A stretch of 56,532 nucleotides of DNA from Lachnospiraceae bacterium (GTDB lineage Bacteria; Bacillota; Clostridia; Lachnospirales; Lachnospiraceae). The translations under genes and the position numbers were made by a program. Shown one piece after another: positions 6,927 to 51,161 of this stretch. Position 1 is the first letter of the stretch; every line of letters begins with the position of its first letter. The stretch covers positions 1 through 56,532 of the forward strand of contig SVEA01000177.1 in assembly GCA_015057615.1 (NCBI GenBank), written 5' to 3'. The notes beneath the pieces are model-generated. The model was not told where the DNA came from, did no database searches, and was given only the letters and a program-made list of their open reading frames with translations.

Positions 6927-7463
6927 TTATATTAATTCAATTAATACTTCCATAGCTGCGTCGCCCTTACGAGGTCCGATCTTTACGATTCTGGTATAAC
7001 CACCGTTACGGTTTGCATACTTCGGTGCAATTTCGTCAAACAGCTTGTCAGATAAGTTAACTGTTTTGGTATTTCTTTTCTTTCCTGCATTTTCTGCCGG
7101 AACTTCGGTAATCGTATAAAGGTATTTCATCATCTGCTTTCTTGCATGAAGACGGGATGGGCTATCCTTCTTAATTGTCTTCTCTGCATCATCAAAAACC
7201 GTAACCTTCTTACCATCTACTACTTCTTTTACTCTTTTTCCATCTTTATCTTTGCGGGCAACTTTCGTTGTTACCGTAACCGTCTGGAAATTGTCTTTTT
7301 CCTTTACAGCAAGCGCAATCATGCCTTCAGCAATTTTACGAATTTCTTTTGCCTTGGACTCTGTAGTAACGATTTTGCCATGGTATAGTAAATTCGTAAC
7401 CTGGTTTCTCAGTAAAGCCTTTCTTTGGCTAGACGTTCTTCCAAGCTTTCTATAACCTGCCAT
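6927..7463 (-). CDS. rplQ: 50S ribosomal protein L17, enlarged form
   Basis: L17 sits near the exit tunnel of the large subunit. The protein starts normally ([31 protein letters not shown]) and ends normally ([25 protein letters not shown]). At 178 residues it is well above the usual 115-130. The extra length is an internal lysine-rich insert at about residues 57-101, between the region of MIALAVKEK and [12 protein letters not shown], with further length near residue 122. The frame is continuous, so this is a real extension and not a frameshift. It is last in the alpha operon, 43 bp after rpoA. Confidence 0.97.
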
Positions 7464-7506
7464 TTCATTCCCTCCTTTGAATCATTATAACTTTACGAAA
7501 TCTATT

Positions 7507-8466
7507 TTAGTCTTCGCTCTGGCTTAAGGACAAACCAAGCTCTTTTAATTTTGCAAGTACTTCTTCTAAAGACTTACGTCCCAGATTTCTTACCTTCATC
7601 ATATCTTCCGCTGTCTTATTCGTAAGCTCTTCAACGGTATTAATTCCGGCTCTCTTTAAGCAATTATAGGAACGAACGGATAACTCCAGTTCGTCAATAC
7701 TCATCTCAAGTACCTTTTCTTTTTCATTATCTTCTTTTTCAACCATGATCTCAGCTGTTTTCGCATTTTCTGATAAATCAATAAAGGAATTCAGATGCTC
7801 GCTTAAAACTTTGGCAGCTAAACTAACTGCTTCATCCGGTGCAAGCGTTCCGTTTGTATATACATCCAAGGTAAGTTTATCAAAATCTGTGATCTGACCT
7901 ACACGAGTATTCTCTATGGACAGATTAACACGTTCTACCGGTGTGTAAATGGAATCAATCGGAATTACTCCGATGGGCAGATCATCATTTTTGTTCTTAT
8001 CTGCGCTGACATACCCTCTTCCACTCGTAATAGTTAACTCCATATAGAGTCTGCTATCCGGGCCACCACTTAAGGTTGCGATCACTTGATCAGGATTGAG
8101 TATCTCGATATCCGGGTCAGCCTGTATATCCCCTGCTGTCACTACAACTTCGCCTTCCGCCTCAATATATGCGGTTTTAGGCTCATTCGTATCGCTTGTG
8201 TTCTTGATTGCTAAGTTTTTAATATTCATGATGATTTCAGTAACATCTTCCTTGCAGCAAGGAATCACACCAAATTCATGAACCACTCCGTCAATCTTAA
8301 TTTGGCTTACAGCAGAACCGGGTAAGGATGATAGCATAATTCTTCTTAGAGAATTACCTAAGGTCGTACCATAGCCTCTCTCCAGAGGTTCTACTACAAA
8401 ACGCCCAAACATATTGTCTTCGGAAATTTCTGCAATCTCTATTTTGGGTTTTTCAAAATCAAACAC
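7507..8466 (-). CDS. rpoA: RNA polymerase subunit alpha
   Basis: The alpha dimer is the assembly platform of RNA polymerase, and its C-terminal domain contacts promoter UP elements and activators. The 319-residue protein has an N-terminal domain with [21 protein letters not shown], an acidic linker ([10 protein letters not shown]), and a C-terminal domain with [16 protein letters not shown] and [15 protein letters not shown]. The start is a GTG with GAAGGAGGG upstream. It is co-transcribed with rpsD upstream and rplQ downstream. Confidence 0.98.
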
Positions 8467-8635
8467 AACAGGACCCTCCTTCTGGGTTATTTGAGTCGAT
8501 CATAACTCATAATAATTTGATTGGACAAGATAATTTACTTAAAAATGATCTTGTCTGCGCATTGCAAAAATTCTTAATCGCATAAAGCGTAAGCTCTGCC
8601 ATATCGAATATTTGAAATATGCCATATGCAATGAA

Positions 8636-9232
8636 TTATTTTGAGTATAACTCGACGATTAATACTTCATCTACCGGAACATCGATCTGGTCTCTTGTCG
8701 GAACTTCTTTCACCGTACCTGTTAATGCTTCATGGTTTACTTCCAGCCATGCAGGTACCATTCTTCCGTCCGTTACCTCTAAGATATCCTTATATCTTTG
8801 TGTATTTTTAAATTTCTCTTTTATTTCAATGGTATCTCCAGCCTTTACTGAATAGGATGGGATATTAACACATTTCCCATTTACCAGTACATGCTTGTGA
8901 TCAACGATCTGTCTTGCTTCTTTTCTTGTACGTGCATAGCCCATACGGAAAATCACGTTATCTAAACGAAGCTCTAACATAGTCATTAAGTTCTCACCAG
9001 TGGTACCGTTCTTCATTTTCTGAGCTTTTGCAAATAAGTTACGGAAAGGCTTCTCTAATACACCATAGATAAATTTTGCCTTCTGTTTTTCTCTTAACTG
9101 CATACCATATTCGCTCATCTTCTTGCTTTTTCTTGCAACGGAGCGATTGGATTTCTTATCAATTCCTAAATAAGCAGGCTCTAAGCCAAGGGCTCTACAT
9201 TTTTTTAAAACAGGATCCATATCTCTTGCCAT
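8636..9232 (-). CDS. rpsD: 30S ribosomal protein S4
   Basis: S4 nucleates assembly of the 30S body and often represses its own operon. The 198-residue protein has the S4 RNA-binding domain (RLDNVIFRMGYARTRKEARQIV, then HVLVNGK) and ends DEVLIVELYSK. The usual N-terminal zinc cysteines are absent, as in many Firmicutes. TAGGAGG precedes the ATG. It lies between rpsK and rpoA, whereas in Bacillus rpsD is outside this operon. A 170-bp gap separates it from rpoA. Confidence 0.98.
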   Translation of the reverse strand: MARDMDPVLKKCRALGLEPAYLGIDKKSNRSVARKSKKMSEYGMQLREKQKAKFIYGVLEKPFRNLFAKAQKMKNGTTGENLMTMLELRLDNVIFRMGYARTRKEARQIVDHKHVLVNGKCVNIPSYSVKAGDTIEIKEKFKNTQRYKDILEVTDGRMVPAWLEVNHEALTGTVKEVPTRDQIDVPVDEVLIVELYSK

Positions 9233-24136: not shown

Positions 24137-24414
24137 AAAAAAAAGCCGCCTCCTTTTCGCACTTAATTTCAGTACGACAAGTGGTGACTGTACACTCACC
24201 CGTGCGTATCTTCATTTTCCGAACAAACTGACAAACCGATTCGGTTTGCCCCCGGAACCTCCAATGAGATTTTCACACGTCTTCTCTGCCAAAGGCAGAA
24301 CATTAATTTGTACAGTGACTTGTCGCCAGTTTCATAACTTGACCTTCGCTCCACGGAAAAACCTGCTGAAAATCAGCAGCAACCTCACGCTTCTACGCTA
24401 TCAACGTCACAACA
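24137..24414 (-). promoter_or_regulatory. Structured leader of the S10 operon
   Basis: About 280 nt of untranslated leader lie between the promoter and rpsJ. Read on the minus strand, CGACAAGT-CACTGTACA (24309-24326) can pair with TGTACAGT-CACTTGTCG elements at 24174-24194, closing a large domain. Inside and before it are local hairpins CTGCTGatttTCAGCAG, TCTGCCtttGGCAGA and ACAAACCGAATCGGTTTGT. I see no clear intrinsic terminator, so control would more likely act on translation. It differs from the enterobacterial L4-type leader as far as I can tell. Confidence 0.65.
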
Positions 24415-24592: not shown

Positions 24593-25603
24593 TTACGGTA
24601 AAGTATCTTTCGTGATAACCGATACTCCGGTATCCACATCCTTCTCTGGGATTTCTTCCCCGTTAATTGCCTGAACCGCCGCCTTTACGCCTTCATACCC
24701 CATGACATCCGGATTCTGAGCCATGATCGCAAGGAGGGATCCATCCTTTACTAAAGAAATATTTGCATCCGATTTATCAAATCCGACTCCGACAACACTG
24801 CCGCCGGCGCCCTTGATCGCATTTCCAACACCAACGGAGCTGCCTTCATTGGTTCCAAATATACCTACGACGCCCTGTGTGATGTAGTTCTCTGCAATTT
24901 CCTGCGATTTTGCAACATCGCCTTCCCCGTATTGTGTTTCAAGGATTTCAAAGCTCGTTCCTTCAAAAGCCTCGCGGAATCCCATCTCTCTCTGTACCAC
25001 GGAATCGGTGGAAGGATTCACATTCACAATTCCTATTTTACCTTCCGAAATATTTTGTGCCTTTAACTCCTCCAGCAGTACCCCTCCTGCTGTTTTTCCG
25101 GCTGCTTTATTATTGGTTGAAAACGTAGCGCATGCCTCGGTATTGGCAGGGGAGTCTACATAAACAATCTTGATGCCGGCATTTTTTGCTTCCTCCAGTG
25201 CTGCCGTAATCGCATCCGGTCCGTTCGCTGCGATCACAATGGCATCTGCGCCGTCTGCCACCGCATTATTCACCCGTTCGATCTGCTGGGCATCGTCCTT
25301 TTTATCCGGAGCCATCCATTTATATTCCGCTCCCAGCTCATCCGCCGCTTTCTGCGCTCCCTTATCAACGTTTACCCAGTGCTGGTCAATACTATCCATA
25401 GTAATTAATATTATTTTATTTTTCTTCCCGGTATCTTCCTTCTTCTCCGTGTCCTCTTTTTTCGCGGTATCCTTCTTCTCCGTACCCTCTTTGGTTGTAC
25501 CCTCCTTCGTACTGGCTGCTTCTTCCGGTTTATCGCTGCTGCATCCGGCAAGCAGTGCCATTACCATAACCATAGATAAAATGTAAGCAAGTAACTTTTT
25601 CAT
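24593..25603 (-). CDS. Sugar ABC transporter substrate-binding lipoprotein
   Basis: This is a type 1 periplasmic-binding-protein fold of the ribose/galactose/autoinducer group. A signal peptide ends in the lipobox LLAGC, with C21 the lipidated residue, so the mature protein is anchored outside the membrane. Residues 31-60 form a low-complexity linker of repeated KEGT/KKDT/KKEDT units. The binding domain then runs IILITMDSIDQHWVNVDKGAQ ... IVYVDSP ... IFGTNEGSSVG. The ligand cannot be told from the sequence. It is the last gene after the permease and ATPase, which is common in this family. Confidence 0.93.
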   Translation of the reverse strand: MKKLLAYILSMVMVMALLAGCSSDKPEEAASTKEGTTKEGTEKKDTAKKEDTEKKEDTGKKNKIILITMDSIDQHWVNVDKGAQKAADELGAEYKWMAPDKKDDAQQIERVNNAVADGADAIVIAANGPDAITAALEEAKNAGIKIVYVDSPANTEACATFSTNNKAAGKTAGGVLLEELKAQNISEGKIGIVNVNPSTDSVVQREMGFREAFEGTSFEILETQYGEGDVAKSQEIAENYITQGVVGIFGTNEGSSVGVGNAIKGAGGSVVGVGFDKSDANISLVKDGSLLAIMAQNPDVMGYEGVKAAVQAINGEEIPEKDVDTGVSVITKDTLP

Positions 25604-25730: not shown

Positions 25731-26771
25731 TTAGAAGCTTTCCTTAACATTTGGCACTTTCGTCTTTTTCTTAATCAAATTGCCTCTTCGAATTACCACA
25801 TCCAATAGAACCGATATCACAACGATGGCACCAATGACGATATTACGGATCGCTACTGGTGCGCCTGCAAATTGAAGACCGTTTTGCAAAACTCCCCAGA
25901 TAGAGGCACCGACCACCGTTCCGATCAGAATTCCCTGGCCTCCTAGTGTCGAGACCCCGCCGATTACGGATGCTACTACCGCATAGGTTTCATACATATT
26001 ACCGGCATCCATACTCCCCATCCCAGCCGTTGCAGTCACACTAAAGCCGACGACGGCTGCACAGAAGGAGCTTACGATATAGGCAGTCATTACCGTACGC
26101 ATCGTATTGACACCCGATAATTTAGCCGCTTCTTTATTGCTTCCCACGGCATATAAATACCTGCCGGTCCGCGTCTTGCTGAGCAGGAAGTTAAAGACAA
26201 GGAATAAACCCAATGCGATCCAGACTGTATTGTAAATCCCAAGAACTTTGCCGTAGTAAAAGAAATTCCGGAACCCATTCGCTCCCTCCCCTATGGCATT
26301 TGTATTGTAATTATTATTTGCAATCTGCGCGATACCTCTTGCTACTGTCTGCGTACCTAACGTAGCGATAAACGGTGGTAACTGGCATTTTGCCACTAAC
26401 AGCCCGTTCAGAAATCCGACCATAAGACAGGCGATCAAGGCGATGATAACACAGATCCAAGGGTTCATTCCTTTTGTCATTAAGGTTGCCGAGATCATCG
26501 CGCTCATACCAACGACGGAGCCAATGGATAGGTCGATATTCCCAGTAATCAGCACGTAGGATTGACCGATGCCGATCATAAGGATGGGAGCGATCTGGCG
26601 GAGCAGGTTCCCGATATTTCTTCCCGAAAAGAACGTTGGATTTAAGAATCCAAAGATAATACATAAGCATACCAAACCGATGGTAACCGTTACAACCTGT
26701 CCCATCCCCCGAATAGATAAAATCCTTCTCATAACATTCTTCGTTCCCTTAGCTTCCATTCTTTTCCCCAT
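25731..26771 (-). CDS. Sugar ABC transporter permease (RbsC-like)
   Basis: The 346-residue membrane protein belongs to the BPD_transp_2 family of ribose, xylose and galactose permeases. The pattern GLVCLCIIFGFLNPTFFSGRNIGNLLRQ, then ITGNIDLSIGSVVGMSAM and ATLGTQTVARG, is diagnostic. It has 8-10 hydrophobic segments and a cytoplasmic AVGSNKEAAKLSGV coupling loop for the ATPase. An ATG four codons in (26759) has a better-placed GGGGAAAAGA and may be the true start. A 122-bp gap separates it from the ATPase gene. Confidence 0.93.
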   Translation of the reverse strand: MGKRMEAKGTKNVMRRILSIRGMGQVVTVTIGLVCLCIIFGFLNPTFFSGRNIGNLLRQIAPILMIGIGQSYVLITGNIDLSIGSVVGMSAMISATLMTKGMNPWICVIIALIACLMVGFLNGLLVAKCQLPPFIATLGTQTVARGIAQIANNNYNTNAIGEGANGFRNFFYYGKVLGIYNTVWIALGLFLVFNFLLSKTRTGRYLYAVGSNKEAAKLSGVNTMRTVMTAYIVSSFCAAVVGFSVTATAGMGSMDAGNMYETYAVVASVIGGVSTLGGQGILIGTVVGASIWGVLQNGLQFAGAPVAIRNIVIGAIVVISVLLDVVIRRGNLIKKKTKVPNVKESF

Positions 26772-26893: not shown

Positions 26894-28411
26894 CTATGCA
26901 ATCTCCTTTTGCTCCACCTTACTGTCAAATCTTGTCGCATATGTTAGAATCGCATCCTGTGTGGCTTCTTCTATACTTAACTCTCCGGTTATTTTCCCGT
27001 CACACATCACTAATATGCGGTCGCTGATCCCCATGATCTCCGACATTTCCGATGATATAAAAAGCACCCCTATGCCCTGCTGCTTTAATTCATTCATCAG
27101 ATTGTATATCTCGACCTTCGCTGCCACATCGATTCCTCTCGTCGGCTCATCAAAAATAACGACCCGCGAGTTCCTTGCCAACCATTTTGCCACGACTACT
27201 TTCTGTTGATTCCCACCGGAAAGATTATTGGCATCCACCTGCGCATTCGGCAGCTTAATGGATAAATTCTGAATCGCCTGCCGGGTAATCGCCCTCTCTT
27301 TTTTCTTATCCGTAATGCCGATCCGATTGCAGAGCATATCCAAATTGGGTAGTGCGATATTTTCCCTGACACTTAAATTAACACATAAACCGTCTTTTTT
27401 TCTATCCTCCGGAACCAATACAATTCCTGCTTTAATTGCATCCCTCGGGCAACGAATCCTGATACTCATTCCATTTAAGATAATCTCCCCGGTTTCCTTT
27501 GGGTCGATGCCAAAGACCGCCCGTGTCGTTTCGGTACGTCCGGCTCCCATCAACCCGGCGATCCCGACAATTTCTCCGGCATGCAGGCAGAAATTAACCT
27601 CTCTTACCATTCGCCCTGCATTCAAATTCTTTACTTCAAAGATTTTCTCCCCCCTCGGACAGACAACTCTGGGATACTTCTCTTTAATCTCCCTGCCAAC
27701 CATAGATGCGATAATTTCATCCATCGTCGTATCACAGAAATTCATTGAATTGATATACCTTCCGTCACGCATGATCGTTACGCGGTCCACAATATATTTC
27801 AGTTCCTCTAAGCGGTGCGAGATGTAGACAATACCACATCCTTCGGATTTTAACCTCCGAATAATTTCAAACAGGTGCTCAATTTCCTTAGAGGTTAGTG
27901 CGGATGTCGGTTCATCCATGATCAGTATCTTAGCATCGGTCGAGATGGCTTTGGCAATCTCTACCATCTGCTGCTTTGAAACAGCCAAATCCCCTACAAC
28001 CGTCGTTGGATCAATATCCATATTAAGACGTTCCAATATTTTTTTAGCTTCCCGGTTCATCTTTTTTTGCTGCAGAAGCCCTTCCTTCACCGTTTCCCTG
28101 CCGAGAAAAATATTCTCAGCGACCGTAAGATGAGAACACATATTAAGCTCCTGATGAATAATCGCAATCCCAAGCTCCCTGGCAGATTTTGGTGTCAGAT
28201 CCCCCAGTTCTTTGCCAAACACCCGAATTACACCACTATCCCTTTCATATACACCGCTTAAAACCTTCATAAGTGTTGACTTTCCGGCACCATTTTCTCC
28301 TAGCAGCGCCATAATCTCACCGGATTTAAGACGAAAGCATACATCATCCAATGCCTTGACACCCGGAAAGGTCTTATTGATATGTTCCATTTCAACTATG
28401 TAATCCCCCAT
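26894..28411 (-). CDS. Sugar ABC transporter ATPase, double domain (RbsA-like)
   Basis: This is a 505-residue protein with two nucleotide-binding domains. The N-terminal domain is complete: Walker A GENGAGKST, Q-loop IIHQELNM, signature region (LAVSKQQMVEIAKA), Walker B LIMDEPTSAL and switch His YISHRLEEL. The C-terminal domain has the usual variant Walker A GLMGAGRTET, then LSGGNQQKVVVAKWL and VIFDEPTRGID. I chose the ATG at 28411 because AGGTGA precedes it; the frame runs 28 codons further but with no homology. It pairs with the permease and binding protein downstream. The closest relative in the window is the degenerate protein at 28801-30249. Confidence 0.94.
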   Translation of the reverse strand: MGDYIVEMEHINKTFPGVKALDDVCFRLKSGEIMALLGENGAGKSTLMKVLSGVYERDSGVIRVFGKELGDLTPKSARELGIAIIHQELNMCSHLTVAENIFLGRETVKEGLLQQKKMNREAKKILERLNMDIDPTTVVGDLAVSKQQMVEIAKAISTDAKILIMDEPTSALTSKEIEHLFEIIRRLKSEGCGIVYISHRLEELKYIVDRVTIMRDGRYINSMNFCDTTMDEIIASMVGREIKEKYPRVVCPRGEKIFEVKNLNAGRMVREVNFCLHAGEIVGIAGLMGAGRTETTRAVFGIDPKETGEIILNGMSIRIRCPRDAIKAGIVLVPEDRKKDGLCVNLSVRENIALPNLDMLCNRIGITDKKKERAITRQAIQNLSIKLPNAQVDANNLSGGNQQKVVVAKWLARNSRVVIFDEPTRGIDVAAKVEIYNLMNELKQQGIGVLFISSEMSEIMGISDRILVMCDGKITGELSIEEATQDAILTYATRFDSKVEQKEIA

Positions 28412-28455
28412 ATATTCACCTATCCTTACGCTTCTCATTAATAATGATATGAGTG

Positions 28456-28711
28456 GCAAAAGCCCTCTTAACAAATCGACTTCATTAATTTGCACAAAGC
28501 AAGGTAAAACTTAAGTAATAGCAAACAATATTTTACTGCGCAACTGTTTGAAGTCGTTGGTACATAAGATTATGTGTTTTATGATCTTATGTACCATTAC
28601 GTACTTCAACCCAAGGACTGCGTTTTATGCAGTGCTTTGTAAGACAACGGGTTGCGAATGAAATTTGCTTCATATTATTTGCAAACACATAGATTGTGCA
28701 AATTGGCTTTT
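28456..28711 (+). repeat. Foldback repeat family B, copy B1
   Basis: About 256 bp between the degenerate ABC gene and the transporter ATPase gene. Ends are CAAAAGCC and GGCTTTTA, followed inward by AATTTGCACAA and TTGTGCAAATT. The centre carries GCAAC/GTTGC and two hairpins; in this copy the first hairpin is lengthened by a perfect GGTACATAAGATC-type palindrome. All four B copies lie in the same orientation. The promoter of the transporter operon must lie in or near this element; I cannot identify it. Bases 28712-28800 hold a CCCCTG/CAGGGG hairpin that may terminate the upstream operon. Confidence 0.85.
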
Positions 28712-28739
28712 ACAAATTATGTATACGGCTATACTATAA

Positions 28740-28775
28740 CATATCCCCTGGCACGGTAACAGGGGACTGCTTTTG
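28740..28775 (-). terminator. Hairpin after the degenerate ABC gene
   Basis: On the minus strand CCCCTGttaccgtgCCAGGGG forms a GC-rich stem about 35 bases beyond the stop of the gene at 28801-30249. The following T-tract is weak, so efficiency is uncertain. Confidence 0.5.
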
Positions 28776-28800
28776 GATTTATAGGGGGACTATTATGAAC

Positions 28801-30249
28801 TTAGGAGCGCAGCCAGATAAATTTTGTACTGTCATAATCCTTGCTTAACTGTCCGTTCTCGATCACCATCAGCCGGTCTGCCACCACCAGGGAATCCGAC
28901 AGGCTTACCGCGAGGATAATAACCGTAATTCCTTTCTTTTTAAGCTCCTGAAGCAAATGAATGATATGCATTCTCAAGTACATGTCCGCACCGGAGAAAG
29001 GCTGCATGCAGAATACTACCTTGGGATTATATAGATGCACTCGGTTATAAATCATACTGTAGAGTGCCGCGGGAGACAGTGCAGAAACCTCTTTTGCATG
29101 AATGCTTTCTCCGACCACAGGCATATATTCCTGTGCGATACTCCATAGAAGCTTCTTTCGTAAATGTAGATTCCACTGCTTCCGCTTAAGAAGAAAGCTT
29201 AAGTTTTCAAGATAGCTAAAATCCTTAAAAACCATTGTTTGCAGAGGGTATTCATGGATAAAGCACACCCCCTTCTTAAGAGCATAGGACGGATTCTTCC
29301 TAAGATACGGCTGCCCGTCCAGAAGAATCGAACCACTCTTCGGAGCCAGGCACCCATTCATGAGATCAATGATATCCGTTAAAATGGTATTGTTCATATC
29401 CAGCAGAACGGTACATTCTCCTTTTTCAACCGAAAAGCTTAAATCTTTGATATGTTCGGTTGTAATATTGTTCAACTGCAATATTTTTTTCTTATGAACC
29501 TTTTTCATCTCCGGATTCTTAATATCATAAAAATCCTTACAATAAGGCTTTATTTTATCGTCTGTAAACTCCTTCTGATCCAGAACCTTTATAATTTTAC
29601 CGTTTTCCATTAAGGCGATCCGGTTGCAGATCTGAAATGCCTCTTCGTGATGGTTGCAGATATAAAGAAAGGACAGCCCCTCCCCGCAGTAATACCGGAT
29701 CAACTTATGAAAAACAGCAAGCTCCGCGGCGCTGAGATAGTTGCTGATATCCTTTATCACTACAAGCTTGGTACCGGCAACCACTGCCTTCAACAGCAGC
29801 ACAAGGCATTTTTCCAGGGAAGACAGCTGGGATACCGGCTCGTTTCCTTCTATTTTTAAGTCGAGCTTTTGTAGCACATCCTTTAACCCGGCATTCAGAA
29901 CCCTTTTGTTGATCAGATAGCTTTTAAAGCCGTTTCTCAGAACAAAGATATTATCCACCACCGTTAAATCCTCGACTAAACCGTTCTCCTTCTCGATTAC
30001 GACCACCTTATTCGACTCAAACGTGCTTTCCTCATAGCTGTTTACCAAGATTTCATCCATATAAATTCTGCCGTAGTGGAGCGGCAAATTCCTACATAGC
30101 AGATCCACCAGTTCTTTCTCTCCATGGGCATTGATGCATACAAGCCCCAGAATCTCCCCTCGAAATATATGTAGATTAAAATTATCCAGCAGGGTGACTC
30201 CATCCACAATTCTTGTCACCTTTTCCAGGCGTAAAACTTCTTCCTTCAT
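28801..30249 (-). CDS. Degenerate double-ABC protein, probable pseudo-ATPase beside a two-component system
   Basis: The 482-residue protein has the layout of RbsA-type sugar ATPases: two ABC domains, each beginning with a beta-strand core (LRLEKVTRIVDGVTLLDNFNL; LQLNNITTEHIKDLSFSVEKGE). Every catalytic motif is lost. Walker A reads CINAHGEKE in domain 1 and LLDMNNTILTD in domain 2; signatures are VSQLSSLEK and VSALSPAAL; Walker B reads LVVIKDIS and VVFCMQPFS. The switch histidines survive only partly (CNHHEEA). The frame is intact over 482 codons with a good AAAGGAGTAAG start, so the loss seems selected, not decay. It follows the kinase gene by 5 bp. A signalling or adaptor role is inference. 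Confidence 0.85.
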   Translation of the reverse strand: MKEEVLRLEKVTRIVDGVTLLDNFNLHIFRGEILGLVCINAHGEKELVDLLCRNLPLHYGRIYMDEILVNSYEESTFESNKVVVIEKENGLVEDLTVVDNIFVLRNGFKSYLINKRVLNAGLKDVLQKLDLKIEGNEPVSQLSSLEKCLVLLLKAVVAGTKLVVIKDISNYLSAAELAVFHKLIRYYCGEGLSFLYICNHHEEAFQICNRIALMENGKIIKVLDQKEFTDDKIKPYCKDFYDIKNPEMKKVHKKKILQLNNITTEHIKDLSFSVEKGECTVLLDMNNTILTDIIDLMNGCLAPKSGSILLDGQPYLRKNPSYALKKGVCFIHEYPLQTMVFKDFSYLENLSFLLKRKQWNLHLRKKLLWSIAQEYMPVVGESIHAKEVSALSPAALYSMIYNRVHLYNPKVVFCMQPFSGADMYLRMHIIHLLQELKKKGITVIILAVSLSDSLVVADRLMVIENGQLSKDYDSTKFIWLRS

Positions 30250-30254
30250 CGGGC

Positions 30255-31265
30255 TTACTCCTTTTGAATTAGGGGAAGCGTAATCTCTACATCGGTTCCC
30301 ACATTGCGGCGGCTGTAAACATTAAGTCCGTACTCTTCTCCAAAGAGAAGCTGTATCCGCCGATTTACATTAACGAGGGCAATTCCTCCCTTTTCCTCGC
30401 TTTCCGGTTTTACATAATCAAAGGAGGAATGATTCAGCTTCTGATTCAGCTCTTCCAGAGTATCTTCCTCCATCCCCAGACCATCATCTGAAATAATCAG
30501 GATCAAGCGTTTCGGCGTTGTCTCAACCTTAATCCGGACCGTTCCTTTCCCAACCTTCATCTCAATGCCATGATATACCGCATTTTCCACAATCGGCTGC
30601 AAAGTCAGCTTCGGAAGCCGGTACTGCAATACGATGGCTTCCTCCTCCGGATCGATTTCAATACTAAGATTCAACCGTTCCCCGAAACGGTACTGCTGGA
30701 TAATATAATAATTATCAATGTTGGTTAGCTCATCCTCCAGCGTTACCAGATGCTCCACATTCGATATGGTATAGCGAAAGAAGGTGGACAAAGCTTCCGT
30801 CATCTCGGCTGCGCTATCCAGACCTGCTACCAGAGCCTCCCCTCGAATCCCTTCCAGCGTATTATATAGGAAATGCGGATTAATCTGATTCTGCAGTGCC
30901 AGAAACTGTGCCTGCTTTTTTGAGACACTGATCAGCTCATTCGTATTCACCATTTCCTTAAATTTAGCCATGATTCCTTCCACTTCCGGAGAAATATATA
31001 CCGCAGAGTCCCCGTTTAAGGTATAACCATTGATAAAAAGCTGCAGTATCCGCTTATTTCTCCGATACGGTTGATAAATCCACCGATAGCTGCCGTACAG
31101 AACCGCACTATAGATAATGACACCAGATAATGCAACCGGAAGATAGGCAACATGGTAAGTTGCTGCCCCTGCAAACAGAATTAATAAGAGCACCGTAACA
31201 ATGACATAGAGAAAAAACAGAATCCTAATTCGATACGTGATAAACCTGCTCTTTCCACGCTCCAC
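30255..31265 (-). CDS. Sensor histidine kinase, LytS/YesM-type, with almost no extracellular part
   Basis: The 336-residue protein has two adjacent membrane helices (about residues 12-34 and 40-60) with a loop of only a few residues, then a short linker, the His_kinase domain with the phospho-acceptor in QINPHFLYN, and an HATPase_c domain with PIVENAVYHGIE and ISDDGLGME. YesM relatives normally have a large extracellular Cache-type domain; it is missing here. I chose the GTG at 31265 since GGGGGTG lies six bases upstream; the longer frame would overlap the regulator gene. It lies between the regulator and the degenerate ABC gene. Confidence 0.93.
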   Translation of the reverse strand: MERGKSRFITYRIRILFFLYVIVTVLLLILFAGAATYHVAYLPVALSGVIIYSAVLYGSYRWIYQPYRRNKRILQLFINGYTLNGDSAVYISPEVEGIMAKFKEMVNTNELISVSKKQAQFLALQNQINPHFLYNTLEGIRGEALVAGLDSAAEMTEALSTFFRYTISNVEHLVTLEDELTNIDNYYIIQQYRFGERLNLSIEIDPEEEAIVLQYRLPKLTLQPIVENAVYHGIEMKVGKGTVRIKVETTPKRLILIISDDGLGMEEDTLEELNQKLNHSSFDYVKPESEEKGGIALVNVNRRIQLLFGEEYGLNVYSRRNVGTDVEITLPLIQKE

Positions 31266-31278
31266 AACACTCACCCCC

Positions 31279-32895
31279 TCAGGAATACAGCTTCCTGTAC
31301 TCATTTGGCTTAATCCCGGCAACCCTCTTAAAATTCTTAGTAAAATGCTTCAAATCGCTGTATCCGACCTGTTCACAAATCCCGGCAACCGTAAGATTGG
31401 TTTCCTTTAACAGATCCTTCGCCTTATTCATTCTTACCTCCGAGAGGTACTCCTGAAAATTTGTACCGCTCTCCTTTTTAAAAAGGGTACTGAAATAGGA
31501 AGGACTGAACCCCGCAAAACCGCTGACCTCCTCTAAAGTAATCGGGCAGTTATAATGCTCCTGAATGTACTGCTTTGCCATACGAATCGGTTTGGTATCC
31601 TTCTGCTTTTTATCCTCCTTAATTTTATCCAGGGATTTTTCGACCAAGAGAGCGAAGTATTCCATTATCTCCGCTATGGAAGAGCACCGTCCGGCATGAA
31701 AGCTGAAATTATCCGCAAGCTCTTCCGGATTGCCGATATCATACTGATTCACCCGAAGGAGGGTAAGATATATATTGCAGGCTTCCAGGCAGAGCCGGTA
31801 TGCTTCATAGCCTCTTATTTTTACTTCTTTCTTTAGATCCGCCTCGAAGGATTGTACGGATGCCAATATGCCTTCGTTATCAAGGATTTCCAGCGCCGCT
31901 CCCATCGATTTGTTCAGATCGGATAGTATTCTGTCCGATACCTCACGGGCATCCACCGCCATTACTCCCTCGATTAGCCTGCCGGTTCCAGTCACCAGCC
32001 GCTCCGCCATCGCATACTGCGCCCTAAGAAATGACGCTTTCAGCCGGCTTATCTCCTCTTCCACGCTTCCTGCACCAACCGTAAGCTCTATTTTTCCAAA
32101 GACACTTTTCTGAATCATCAGATCATCCATGATCCATTTGAAATGCTTCCGTATTATTTTCCGGTTATCCTCCCGATAATTCAGTACATAGTACGTGATC
32201 GTATCGTCCACATAGCACTCGTAATCAAAGCATTGCTGTTCCAGAGAATTTCGAAACGCCTGGATAATTTTATCTTCCATAAGCCTTAGGCTGCTGTGAT
32301 TCCCTTCCCCATAACCGCAATCCATTTTAAGGATCACAATCTGAAAACAGCCTTCCTGAAAATGATAATGAAAATTCTCATTTACTTTCTCAAGGGTAAG
32401 CTCCTCACCGCTTAGATTCCTCTGCATTAAGACCTCCGTAAAAAATCCTGACCGCAGCTTTCCAAGATCCGATTGGATCCGATTTCTTAAATGCTCCTGA
32501 TCCGAAAGCAGCTCCATCCTCTTTCTGTATTTCAGGCTCATTTTCGTAAGCGTTCCCAACAGCTCATTCTTCTTAATCGGTTTTAACAGATAATCACTGA
32601 CGCCAAATTTAATCGCATTTTGTGCATATTCAAAATTACTGTAGCCGCTGATGATAATAAAGTCGATATCGTTATTGATCTGCTTGATACGGCTGATCAG
32701 CTGCAATCCATCATAACCGGGCATACGGATATCGGTAATAATCAGATCCACATTCAAACGCTTTACGAGTGCAAGCGCTTCTATGCCGTTATGCGCCATC
32801 CCAGCTACTTCCATATCAAGCGCCTGCCAGTCAATTAATTTGTAAATCAGGTTACAGACCTTCTCTTCATCATCCGCTATGATAACCTTCAACAT
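31279..32895 (-). CDS. Response regulator with AraC-type DNA-binding domain (YesN-like)
   Basis: The 538-residue protein starts with a receiver domain (acid pair D8-D9, phospho-acceptor D55 in TDIRMPGYDG, conserved lysine in LLKPIKK). A central region of roughly 300 residues follows, as in YesN-type regulators, and two helix-turn-helix motifs of the AraC class end the protein (ITLEEVSGFAGFSPSYFSTLFKKE; GYSDLKHFTKNFKRVAGIKPNEYR). Such regulators usually activate a nearby carbohydrate transporter, here most likely the ABC importer at 24.6-28.4 kb. It is the first gene of the three-gene signalling operon. Confidence 0.95.
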   Translation of the reverse strand: MLKVIIADDEEKVCNLIYKLIDWQALDMEVAGMAHNGIEALALVKRLNVDLIITDIRMPGYDGLQLISRIKQINNDIDFIIISGYSNFEYAQNAIKFGVSDYLLKPIKKNELLGTLTKMSLKYRKRMELLSDQEHLRNRIQSDLGKLRSGFFTEVLMQRNLSGEELTLEKVNENFHYHFQEGCFQIVILKMDCGYGEGNHSSLRLMEDKIIQAFRNSLEQQCFDYECYVDDTITYYVLNYREDNRKIIRKHFKWIMDDLMIQKSVFGKIELTVGAGSVEEEISRLKASFLRAQYAMAERLVTGTGRLIEGVMAVDAREVSDRILSDLNKSMGAALEILDNEGILASVQSFEADLKKEVKIRGYEAYRLCLEACNIYLTLLRVNQYDIGNPEELADNFSFHAGRCSSIAEIMEYFALLVEKSLDKIKEDKKQKDTKPIRMAKQYIQEHYNCPITLEEVSGFAGFSPSYFSTLFKKESGTNFQEYLSEVRMNKAKDLLKETNLTVAGICEQVGYSDLKHFTKNFKRVAGIKPNEYRKLYS

Positions 32896-41717: not shown

Positions 41718-44700
41718 TTATAGGCCATCGCTGTAATCGTCCTCAACGATACCTTTTAAGTTAAATTCTACTTCGGTATACTCTCCGTCGTTATGCGTAT
41801 TTTCTCCCATGGATATATGAGCATCGTCTACACCGGGAATACTGTCCTCTCTTTGTAAATTATCCCCATTTCTTCCATATTTGTCTTCATCATAAACAAC
41901 TTCCGCAATACCATCCTCCGGCTCATGATTTGCTTCTCCAAGAGGTCCTTCCTCAGAATAATTAAAGGTATCAAACTCATCGTTATACTCGCCTTCAATG
42001 CCCTCAGGAACTTCCTCCTGCAGATCAGAGTCAAGCTTCACGGAACGATATCTCTTCATACCGGTTCCGGCAGGGATCAGCTTACCGATAATAACATTTT
42101 CTTTCAAACCGATCAAAGGATCCACCTTACCCTTAATTGCCGCTTCCGTAAGAACCTTGGTAGTTTCCTGGAAGGATGCGGCGGACAGGAAGGAATTTGT
42201 TGCAAGGGATGCTTTCGTAATACCAAGCATTACCTGCTTGCCTTCTGCCAGTTCTAAGCCCTGCTCTTTCAGCCTCTCATTTTCATCATAGAACTCAAGG
42301 ATATCCACTAAGGTTCCGGGTAGGAAACTCGAATCGCCGTTGTTTTCTATGCGGACTTTTTTCAGCATCTGGCGAACGATAACCTCAATATGCTTATCGT
42401 TAATTTCAACACCCTGCAGTCGGTAAACTCTCTGAACCTCCTGGATCATATAATCCTGAACGGAACGTACACCCTTGATCTTAAGAATATCATGAGGGTT
42501 TACGCTACCTTCTGTTAATTCATCACCCGCCTCCAGAGTATCGCCGTCCGATACCTTTATTCTGGAGCCATAAGGAATCAGATAGGACTTAGATTCCGCT
42601 GTTTCATTATTGGTAACAACAACCTCGCGTTTCTTCTTGGTGTCTTTGATCGCTACCGTACCACCGAACTCTGCAATAATTGCAAGTCCCTTCGGCTTTC
42701 TTGCCTCAAAAAGCTCCTCGACACGAGGAAGACCCTGCGTAATATCATCACCGGCAACACCGCCCGTATGGAAGGTACGCATCGTAAGCTGTGTACCAGG
42801 CTCACCGATGGATTGTGCAGCAATAATACCGACTGCTTCTCCTACCTGTACGGCTTCCCCGGTTGCCATATTCGCACCGTAACACTTTGCACAGATACCA
42901 AGGTGGGATTTACAGGTTAAAATCGTACGAATCTTAACCTTTTCAACACCGGTTGCAACAATCTCTGCCGCACGCTTCGGTGTAATCATATGGTTTGCCT
43001 TAACAATCACACTGCCATCCGTATCATAAATGGTCTCGCAGGAATATCTTCCGGTAATTCTCTCTTCCAGTGATTCAATTACTTCTTTACCGTCGGTAAA
43101 CGCCTTGATCCACATACCCGGAATCTCCTCGTTCTGATCATGATCACAGCAATCTGGTTCACGAATGATTAGATCCTGCGCAACATCGACCAAACGACGG
43201 GTCAGATAACCGGAGTCCGCGGTACGAAGCGCCGTATCGGAAAGACCTTTTCTTGCACCATGAGCGGAGATAAAGTACTCCAATACGTCAAGACCTTCAC
43301 GAAGGTTGGACTTGATCGGCAGCTCAATGGTACGTCCGGTGGTATCCGCCATCAAACCACGCATACCTGCCAGCTGTTTAATCTGTTTATCGGAACCACG
43401 GGCACCGGAGTCGGACATCATCTTAATGTTATTAAACTTATCCAGTCCATTCAGCAGGGTATCGGTCAGAAGATTATCGGCTTCCTTCCAGGTATTAATA
43501 ACGGCATTGTATCGCTCTTCCTCCGTCATTCTACCACGTTTGTATTCCTTGGTAATATTCTCAATCGTTGCTTCCGCATCGGCTAAGATCTTCTTCTTTT
43601 CTGCCGGCACCTTCATGTCGGAGATGGAAACGGTCATCGCCGCCCTTGTTGAGAATTTGTAACCCATGCTCTTAATATTATCCAAAATTTCAGCAGTCTG
43701 TGTTGCACCGTGAATATTGATACATTTCTCAAGAATTTGCTTTAATTGTTTCTTGCCGACAAGGAAGTCGACCTCCAGCTTGAGGAAATTCTCTTCCTTG
43801 CTTCGATCAACAAAGCCTAAATCCTGCGGAATGATTTCATTAAATATAAAACGACCCAAGGTAGACTCAATCATTCTGTGTTCTTCAACGCCATCCTTAT
43901 TGACACCGCTTTGTCTTACCCGGATAATTTCCTGTAAATTGATTACTTTATTTTCATAAGCAAGAATTGCTTCATTTACTCCCTTAAATGTAGGAATCTC
44001 ACTGCCTTCGGGATCTCTGACAATCGTCAGGTAATAGATACCGAGAACCATATCCTGTGACGGTACCGCAACCGGAGCGCCATCCGAAGGTTTTAACAGG
44101 TTGTTTGGAGAAAGTAATAGGAAGCGGCATTCCGCTTGCGCTTCTACCGAAAGAGGCAGATGGACCGCCATCTGGTCACCGTCGAAGTCCGCATTATATG
44201 CAGTACATACCAGCGGATGAAGCTTAATCGCTTTACCTTCCACCAGCACTGGTTCAAATGCCTGAATACCAAGTCTATGCAACGTTGGAGCACGGTTTAG
44301 CATAACCGGATGTTCCCGAATAACTTCCTCTAGGACATCCCAAACCTCCGGCTGTAATCTCTCCACCATCTTCTTCGCTGATTTTATATTATGTGCAGTT
44401 CCTCTTGCCACTAATTCTTTCATAACAAAAGGCTTAAATAATTCGATTGCCATTTCCTTTGGCAGACCGCATTGATACAGCTTAAGCTCAGGGCCTACCA
44501 CAATAACGGAACGTCCTGAATAGTCAACACGTTTACCAAGCAGGTTCTGACGGAAACGTCCCTGCTTACCCTTTAACATATCGGAAAGTGATTTGAGCGG
44601 ACGATTTCCAGGGCCGGTAACCGGTCTTCCTCGTCTGCCGTTATCGATAAGAGCATCCACAGCCTCCTGCAGCATTCTCTTTTCATTACGTACAATAATA

Positions 44701-45563
44701 TCCGGTGCGCCAAGCTCAAGAAGTCTCTTAAGACGATTATTACGGTTAATAATTCTACGATACAAATCATTCATATCGGAAGTCGCAAAACGACCGCCGT
44801 CAAGCTGTACCATCGGACGCAGATCCGGCGGAATAACAGGAATCACGGTAAGAATCATCCACTCCGGTTTATTGCCGGACTCACGGAATGCTTCTACGAC
44901 CTCAAGACGCTTAATAATTCTTGCACGCTTTTGTCCGGTAGAATCCTTAAGCCCCTTCTTTAATTCCTTTGATTCCTTATCCAGGTCAATGGCTTCTAAC
45001 AGTTCCATGATTGCTTCTGCACCCATTCCAAGGCGGAAGCTGTTATAACCATACTTTTCAATTGCTTCCAATTTTTCTTTTTCATTCAGCACCTGTTTGT
45101 ACTGAAGCTCCGTATTCCCTTTGTCAAGTACGATATAGGAAGCAAAATACAATACCTTTTCCAGGGTTCTTGGAGAAAGGTCTAAGATAAGCCCCATACG
45201 GCTGGGTATTCCTTTGAAATACCAAATGTGCGATACCGGGGCAGCCAGCTCAATATGTCCCATTCTTTCACGACGTACACTTGCCTTCGTAACTTCAACA
45301 CCACAGCGGTCACAGACTACGCCTTTATAACGAATTTTTTTATACTTACCACAATGACATTCCCAATCCTTGCTGGGTCCGAAGATTCTTTCACAGAATA
45401 AACCGTCTTTTTCCGGCTTTAATGTTCTGTAATTGATTGTCTCCGGCTTTCTAACTTCCCCTTTGGACCATTCTCTGATCTTTTCAGGGGAAGCCAAACC
45501 AATCTTAATTGCATCGTAGCTAATTTGTTGCATTTGTTGCTCAACATTTATATTTTCAGGCAT
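41718..45563 (-). CDS. rpoC: RNA polymerase subunit beta-prime
   Basis: This is the catalytic-clamp subunit of RNA polymerase. The 1281-residue protein has the N-terminal zinc finger ([20 protein letters not shown], summarised), the absolutely conserved magnesium motif [12 protein letters not shown], the second zinc site with [13 protein letters not shown], and the trigger-loop region FHTGGVAG. It ends with a long acidic tail, as in Lachnospiraceae relatives. I chose the ATG at 45563 ([10 protein letters not shown]) with GAAGGGAG upstream; a further ATG nine codons earlier is unsupported. Confidence 0.98.
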
Positions 45564-45629
45564 TCTTTGGCACTCCCTTCGTTCATACATGTTTACAGGA
45601 ACATGTATCCTATTCCCATAATACTTGAT

Positions 45630-50952: not shown

Positions 50953-51004
50953 TACGTACACCTCCTTAGATCATTACATATAAATATCAGACGAACTGAC
51001 ATCT

Positions 51005-51040
51005 AAAAAACCTCTTCCTGCCAAAGCAGAAAGAGGTTTT
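51005..51040 (-). terminator. Attenuator hairpin in the rplJ leader
   Basis: On the minus strand AACCTCTTTCTGC pairs with GGCAGGAAGAGGTT, followed by TTTTTT, upstream of the rplJ start. An intrinsic terminator inside the leader suggests control by premature termination. Confidence 0.8.
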
Positions 51041-51129
51041 CTTATCATCATACGATTCAAACCAACATTTCCTCGGCAGGCGGTTTCGCCTTATGCCTTA
51101 CGGCACCTGCTGTCTTCGGCAGTCTTTTT
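51041..51129 (-). promoter_or_regulatory. Ribosomal protein L10 leader
   Basis: On the minus strand this leader has the classic L10 features: AGACTGCCGAAGACAGCAGGTGCC, then GCCTTATGC-type and GGCGGTTTC-type stems, ending CCTGCCGAGG. The whole folds as a kink-turn-like three-way structure that binds the L10-L12 complex. It lies directly after the promoter at 51132-51161. Confidence 0.85.
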
Positions 51130-51131
51130 GG

Positions 51132-51161
51132 ATTATAGCATGAACTATTCAATCATGTCAA
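51132..51161 (-). promoter_or_regulatory. Promoter of rplJ-rplL
   Basis: On the minus strand TTGACA (51156-51161) and TATAAT (51132-51137) are spaced by 18 bp. Both hexamers are consensus. The family A repeat A3 ends about 40 bp upstream. Confidence 0.85.

Follow-up and report, generated by a model that had tools for sequence, protein, structure and literature searches.

Organization of the operon

The stretch of DNA considered here (56,532 nucleotides from a Lachnospiraceae bacterium, contig SVEA01000177.1 of assembly GCA_015057615.1; "the window" below) carries an operon in which a two-component system is followed by an RbsA-like protein with two ATP-binding cassette (ABC) domains and a degenerate catalytic site, here called dABC, which is probably a former importer ATPase turned input subunit of the adjoining kinase. 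The three genes lie on the minus strand. The response regulator (RR; 31279..32895, 538 amino acids) is of the YesN type, with a receiver domain and an AraC-type helix-turn-helix; it is followed by a short YesM-type histidine kinase (HK; 30255..31322) and, after a gap of 5 bp, by dABC (28801..30249), whose reading frame is uninterrupted over 482 codons. The HK consists of His_kinase (PF06580) and HATPase_c domains, in which the H-, N- and G-boxes are conserved; these are preceded by two adjoining hydrophobic segments without an extracytoplasmic domain. Read from its TTG start at 31322, the HK frame runs into the RR gene; a GTG near 31265, behind GGGGGTGAG, appears as plausible and may be the real start. 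The original prediction, made from the letters and open reading frames of the window, had described this trio, and on re-reading its gene order, strands and coordinates were correct, as were the sensorless kinase and the intact dABC frame.

Loss of the ATP site in dABC

Aligned with the RbsA encoded downstream in the window, which has kept all catalytic motifs, dABC has CINAHGEKE in place of GENGAGKST at the first Walker A, IKDIS in place of MDEPT at the first Walker B, N for H in the H-loop, LSPAALYS in place of LSGGNQQK at the second-half signature and CMQPF in place of FDEPT at the second Walker B. The predicted loss of motifs in both halves was thus borne out, with one refinement: a non-canonical second Walker A, of the GxGRTE type, is already present in the 56 RbsA proteins compared, so that the decisive loss is that of the single canonical site, formed by the first-half Walker A, Walker B and H-loop together with the second-half LSGG. 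When 11 catalytic positions of this site were scored, the window dABC kept 2 and 107 kinase-adjacent dABC proteins kept from 0 to 7, as against 11 in 56 of 56 RbsA proteins; the full first Walker A is retained in 11 of the 107.

The protein is otherwise built as two tandem ABC domains. NCBIfam matches are full-length, and matches of the predicted model and of its fold (compared with 1000 chains pre-ranked by Foldseek) span residues 1-482, while the best NCBIfam score, 168 bits against a cut-off of 699, does not reach the RbsA/MglA family threshold. The ratio of nonsynonymous to synonymous substitution rates (dN/dS) is 0.06-0.07 in three dABC pairs and 0.04-0.06 for live RbsA, a sign of purifying selection. 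Judged by rank within dABC, conservation has shifted from the first Walker A (45th percentile) and LSGG (43rd) to the segments behind the two Q-loops (71st and 62nd). In ABC ATPases these segments form the grooves for the coupling helices of the permease, and they may do so in dABC.

Occurrence and linkage to the kinase

Within the family, a kinase lies directly upstream of dABC in 29 of 29 loci. Matches to a dABC profile below about 265 bits proved to be a mixture of RbsA and of dABC that keep Walker A, correcting a reading of all such matches as ordinary RbsA, and prevalence was therefore counted with a kinase profile, built from dABC-linked kinases and with at most five candidates scored per genome. 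This search found 102 places in 62 of 397 family genomes, all of which were inspected. The ABC gene directly downstream of the kinase is degenerate in 94 of the 102 and intact in one; in the remaining seven it is half-size, fused or displaced. Three of the 94 are short (151 amino acids at locus L174, 218 at L246 and 378 at L204, which is at a contig end). An RR lies directly upstream of the kinase in 100 of the 102 places.

A separate scan of genome contigs gave 22 loci, 21 of them with a true dABC, the named genomes including Tepidanaerobacter, Caproiciproducens, Anaerotruncus and Kineothrix; the kinase is upstream in 20 of the 20 loci with upstream DNA, and RbsA and RbsC are downstream in 21 of 21. 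Searches at the levels of class and phylum were positive in 13 of 391 and 7 of 398 genomes respectively, both figures including the window genome and one genome being common to both. The RR-HK-dABC trio is a conserved system, and the co-occurrence in other genomes on which the original prediction depended is seen within the family. One of 74 dABC has no adjoining kinase.

Several loci depart from the usual layout. In L211 (10276-11031) and L212 (10289-11005), the degenerate ABC gene is half-size and lies ahead of the RR; the kinase of L211 matches HAMP. The 218-amino acid dABC half of L246 (7298-8427) is followed by a 154-amino acid RbsA remnant with LSGG, RbsC and a binding protein, and the L174 copy (7332-9168) is apparently decaying, with its 151-amino acid dABC fragment and a shortened RR.

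Short and sensor-length YesM kinases

As a control, PF06580 was searched in two genomes, that of the window and G071, the latter picked for its several dABC. There were 38 matches, and the loci of 30 of them, 6 short and 24 long, were inspected; the other eight comprise one short kinase with dABC (L176), six long ones and a fragment. All six short kinases (257-355 amino acids) have dABC beside them, while none was found within roughly 1.1 kb downstream of the 24 sensor-length kinases (493-676 amino acids). Four of the 24 (L252, L253, L254 and L258) are directly followed by a gene for a sugar-binding protein, the same layout as in known three-component systems. A tree built from 22 long kinases and half of the short set splits the two classes at only 92% in the Shimodaira-Hasegawa-like approximate likelihood-ratio test (SH-aLRT).

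Six partner kinases (L051, L184, L186, L227, L239 and L242) lack a hydrophobic segment and have no more than 75 residues before the H-box, so that a membrane signal must reach them via another component. By threshold, 9 of 127 kinases have no such segment; L062, which is frame-broken, L226 and L232 are not among the six relied on. L051 (G000:C62, 2484-6399) gives the genome of the window a second such system, with a soluble-looking 259-amino acid kinase and a dABC that has the first Walker A.

Fusions and co-divergence

In two congeneric species, the kinase is fused to a single degenerate ABC domain (L213 of G211, 616 amino acids, and L217 of G1202, 612 amino acids; 87% identical), while in the congener G1197 (L218) the kinase and ABC genes are separate, with an importer of the same type alongside. 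The RR is shortened to 253-285 amino acids in the fusion systems (L213 8749-9510, L217 7649-8506) and has 257 in the unfused L218. Over 77 loci, the distances between dABC proteins follow those of HK (0.93) and RR (0.91) more closely than those of RbsC (0.78), with a bootstrap difference of 0.10-0.22. The partnership of dABC with the kinase is well supported: linkage, the long-kinase control, the fusions and co-divergence all speak for the predicted role of the pseudo-ATPase as dedicated partner of a sensorless kinase.

Importer genes around dABC

The RbsA-type importer predicted downstream of dABC in the window is in place, with genes for a motif-complete RbsA-type ATPase (26894..28495), an RbsC-type permease (25731..26771) and a ribose-type sugar-binding lipoprotein (24593..25603), all on the minus strand. 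The RbsA frame opens with GTG at 28495, but homology begins only near 28411, the likely start. The stretch separating dABC from RbsA (28412..28800) might hold the importer promoter, though a consensus scan did not rise above chance (19 promoter-like sites against 16.1 +/- 3.6 expected). Terminator-like sites numbered 12, as against 7.2 +/- 2.7 expected, and no claim is drawn from either count. Many sugar-binding proteins match the binding protein with similar strength, so that its substrate is not assignable from these matches. The operon is surrounded by ribosomal and RNA polymerase genes, including rpoC near 41718-45590, and S10-Clostridia and L10 ribosomal leaders lie at 24320-24403 and 50996-51137, both on the minus strand.

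Among 112 dABC loci spanning 10 kb or more (shorter loci, duplicates, L174, L213 and L225 being left out), RbsA, RbsC and a binding protein are all present in 93; an importer stands beside dABC more often than by chance. Four loci (L116, L188, L193 and L209) have an additional RbsC-like permease adjoining dABC. In eight of the 112, RbsC and dABC are present but the stretch holds no live RbsA (L109, L208, L226, L227, L232, L233, L242 and L244). Their permeases largely keep the coupling-loop pattern of RbsC, and those checked belong to BPD_transp_2. Among the neighbouring genes are those for TctA in L208 and L244, for a permease and a binding protein of the Dpp type in L242 and for hydrolases in L226, L227, L232 and L233.

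Origin of dABC

One branch, with 98% SH-aLRT support (100/97 in a 50-row tree), divides dABC from RbsA. On the stem between them are two proteins from genome G166, encoded at L225 (11 of 11 catalytic positions) and L198 (7 of 11); L225 groups with RbsA at 81/71 in the 50-row tree, and its exact place is unsure. In the L198 kinase, 218 residues separate the membrane segments. Two of the finds that the original prediction named as telling against it turned up only in part: one homolog has intact motifs (L225), but it is basal between RbsA and the degenerate proteins, and one kinase has a domain of sensor size (L198), which sits with the least degraded type of ABC. Together they fit a stepwise recruitment followed by loss of the sensor domain and of catalysis. 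An intact ABC beside a kinase (L225), a partly degraded one with a sensor kinase (L198), proteins with Walker A only, proteins with nothing left and finally the fusions may be surviving steps; the order is tentative, and the deep long-branch placement is unsure.

Proposed mechanism and alternatives

The reading that we consider probable is that dABC docks on an RbsC-type permease and passes on the state of this permease to the sensorless YesM-type kinase. It would occupy the place of RbsA on the cytoplasmic coupling loops, follow the conformational change caused in the permease by the loaded binding protein and hand this signal to the kinase, which would then phosphorylate the AraC-type regulator and so switch on the importer genes. 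We infer the docking, the direction of the signal, the promoter target and the ligand. A bolder form, which we hold tentatively and somewhat short of probable, is that the binding protein, RbsC-type permease and dead ATPase make up a non-transporting receptor complex that feeds a sensorless or soluble kinase, in some loci controlling unrelated transporters or enzymes such as TctA, the Dpp-type system and the hydrolases. The original prediction had the pseudo-ATPase reporting the state of transport; if no ATPase is supplied from elsewhere, the complex in the RbsA-less loci could report the state of ligand or permease, not transport flux.

Several observations weigh against this picture. The closer co-divergence of dABC with kinase and regulator makes the permease contact the weaker claim. 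Both fusion proteins have one ABC half only, detected by the dABC profile alone (76 and 62 bits), and a Pfam search of L213 recognized no ABC domain in its fused part. Another region of the genome could supply an ATPase to the RbsA-less loci, and some of these loci are weak cases: the L233 dABC scores 30 bits with no Pfam match, that of L227 is half-size (254 amino acids), that of L244 lies about 3 kb off beside a split binding-protein gene, and the L242 binding protein is a partial match. The dABC without an adjoining kinase, in G758, lies outside the operon, yet both it and an RR-HK-RbsA-RbsC-binding-protein operon are retained. Judging by the motif, the dABC that keep Walker A may also still bind ATP.

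That last group would suit the alternative that survives best, in which dABC senses a ligand in the cytosol, binding the kinase only and never contacting the permease, with its nucleotide pockets remade for a metabolite such as a sugar phosphate or a nucleotide. The co-divergence, the fusions and the membrane-free kinases agree with it as well; we nevertheless think it rather unlikely, given the middling conservation of the Walker A and LSGG regions relative to the segments behind the Q-loops, the importer genes in 93 loci and the eight permeases beside dABC without a live RbsA. Homology to RbsA and the frequent importer linkage could instead mean that dABC is the importer's own regulatory subunit, competing with RbsA for the permease and damping transport, with the kinase a neighbour merely through the shared operon. 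This is improbable, since the fusions are with the kinase and none with importer genes, dABC is absent from beside the 24 sensor-length kinases, and it tracks the kinase while importer types change. More improbable still is that dABC senses the flux of a live importer, touching RbsA or RbsC during ATP-driven cycling in the fashion of BceS and BceAB; most loci do have a live RbsA, and Bce modules operate in this way, but some loci have a permease without one, and Bce kinases, as described in PMC10314905, are in direct contact with the permease, no dead ATPase being involved. That dABC is a decaying pseudogene or passenger, as its lost motifs and single broken copies (L040, L174) might suggest, is hardly credible and was rejected on the low, RbsA-like dN/dS, the open frame, the fusion to the kinase and the retention outside the operon in G758.

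Relationship to known systems

The nearest parallel in logic is the Bce module (BceAB-BceS-BceR), in which a kinase without a sensing domain takes its input from an ABC transporter (PMC10314905, PMC7828314). Unlike the dABC system, it has a live ATPase, senses flux through a peptide-antibiotic transporter and uses other kinase and permease families; here the permeases checked are BPD_transp_2, not of the BceB type, and the input candidate has no catalytic site, unlike a live BceA. CuaDSR, and likewise the three-component XylFII-LytS-YesN system cited with it, share with the dABC system a YesM/LytS-type kinase, an AraC-type regulator and a sugar importer, which CuaDSR controls in Clostridia (PMC10384115); in these, according to the same text, it is the kinase's extracytoplasmic part with which the binding protein makes contact, whereas here that part is absent and a cytoplasmic pseudo-ATPase stands instead. 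In Pst-PhoU-PhoR the kinase reads the importer via the ATPase side, through PstB and PhoU (PMC6978683), but PstB is a live ATPase, and PhoU does not belong to the ABC proteins. RbsA/MglA is the parent family, with tandem ABC domains and homology to dABC over the full length, from which dABC differs in lacking the catalytic site and falling below the NCBIfam cut-offs. SUR of the KATP channels, a full-length membrane protein of eukaryotes that acts on a channel, is comparable only in the way it works. Searches of one open library, which does not include subscription papers, turned up no account of a degenerate RbsA next to a kinase; this is weak evidence of absence.

Implications

Importer genes next to kinases are usually annotated as sugar transport. 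Part of an importer has probably been reused, in many Clostridia, as the sensor for a kinase that has none of its own. If so, many "sugar ABC transporter ATPases" of gut and environmental Clostridia would be signalling adaptors, the sensorless YesM kinases would gain a candidate input, and permease conformation would be separated, as a signal, from ATP-driven transport; a receptor built from a whole dead importer would go beyond known transporter-coupled sensing.
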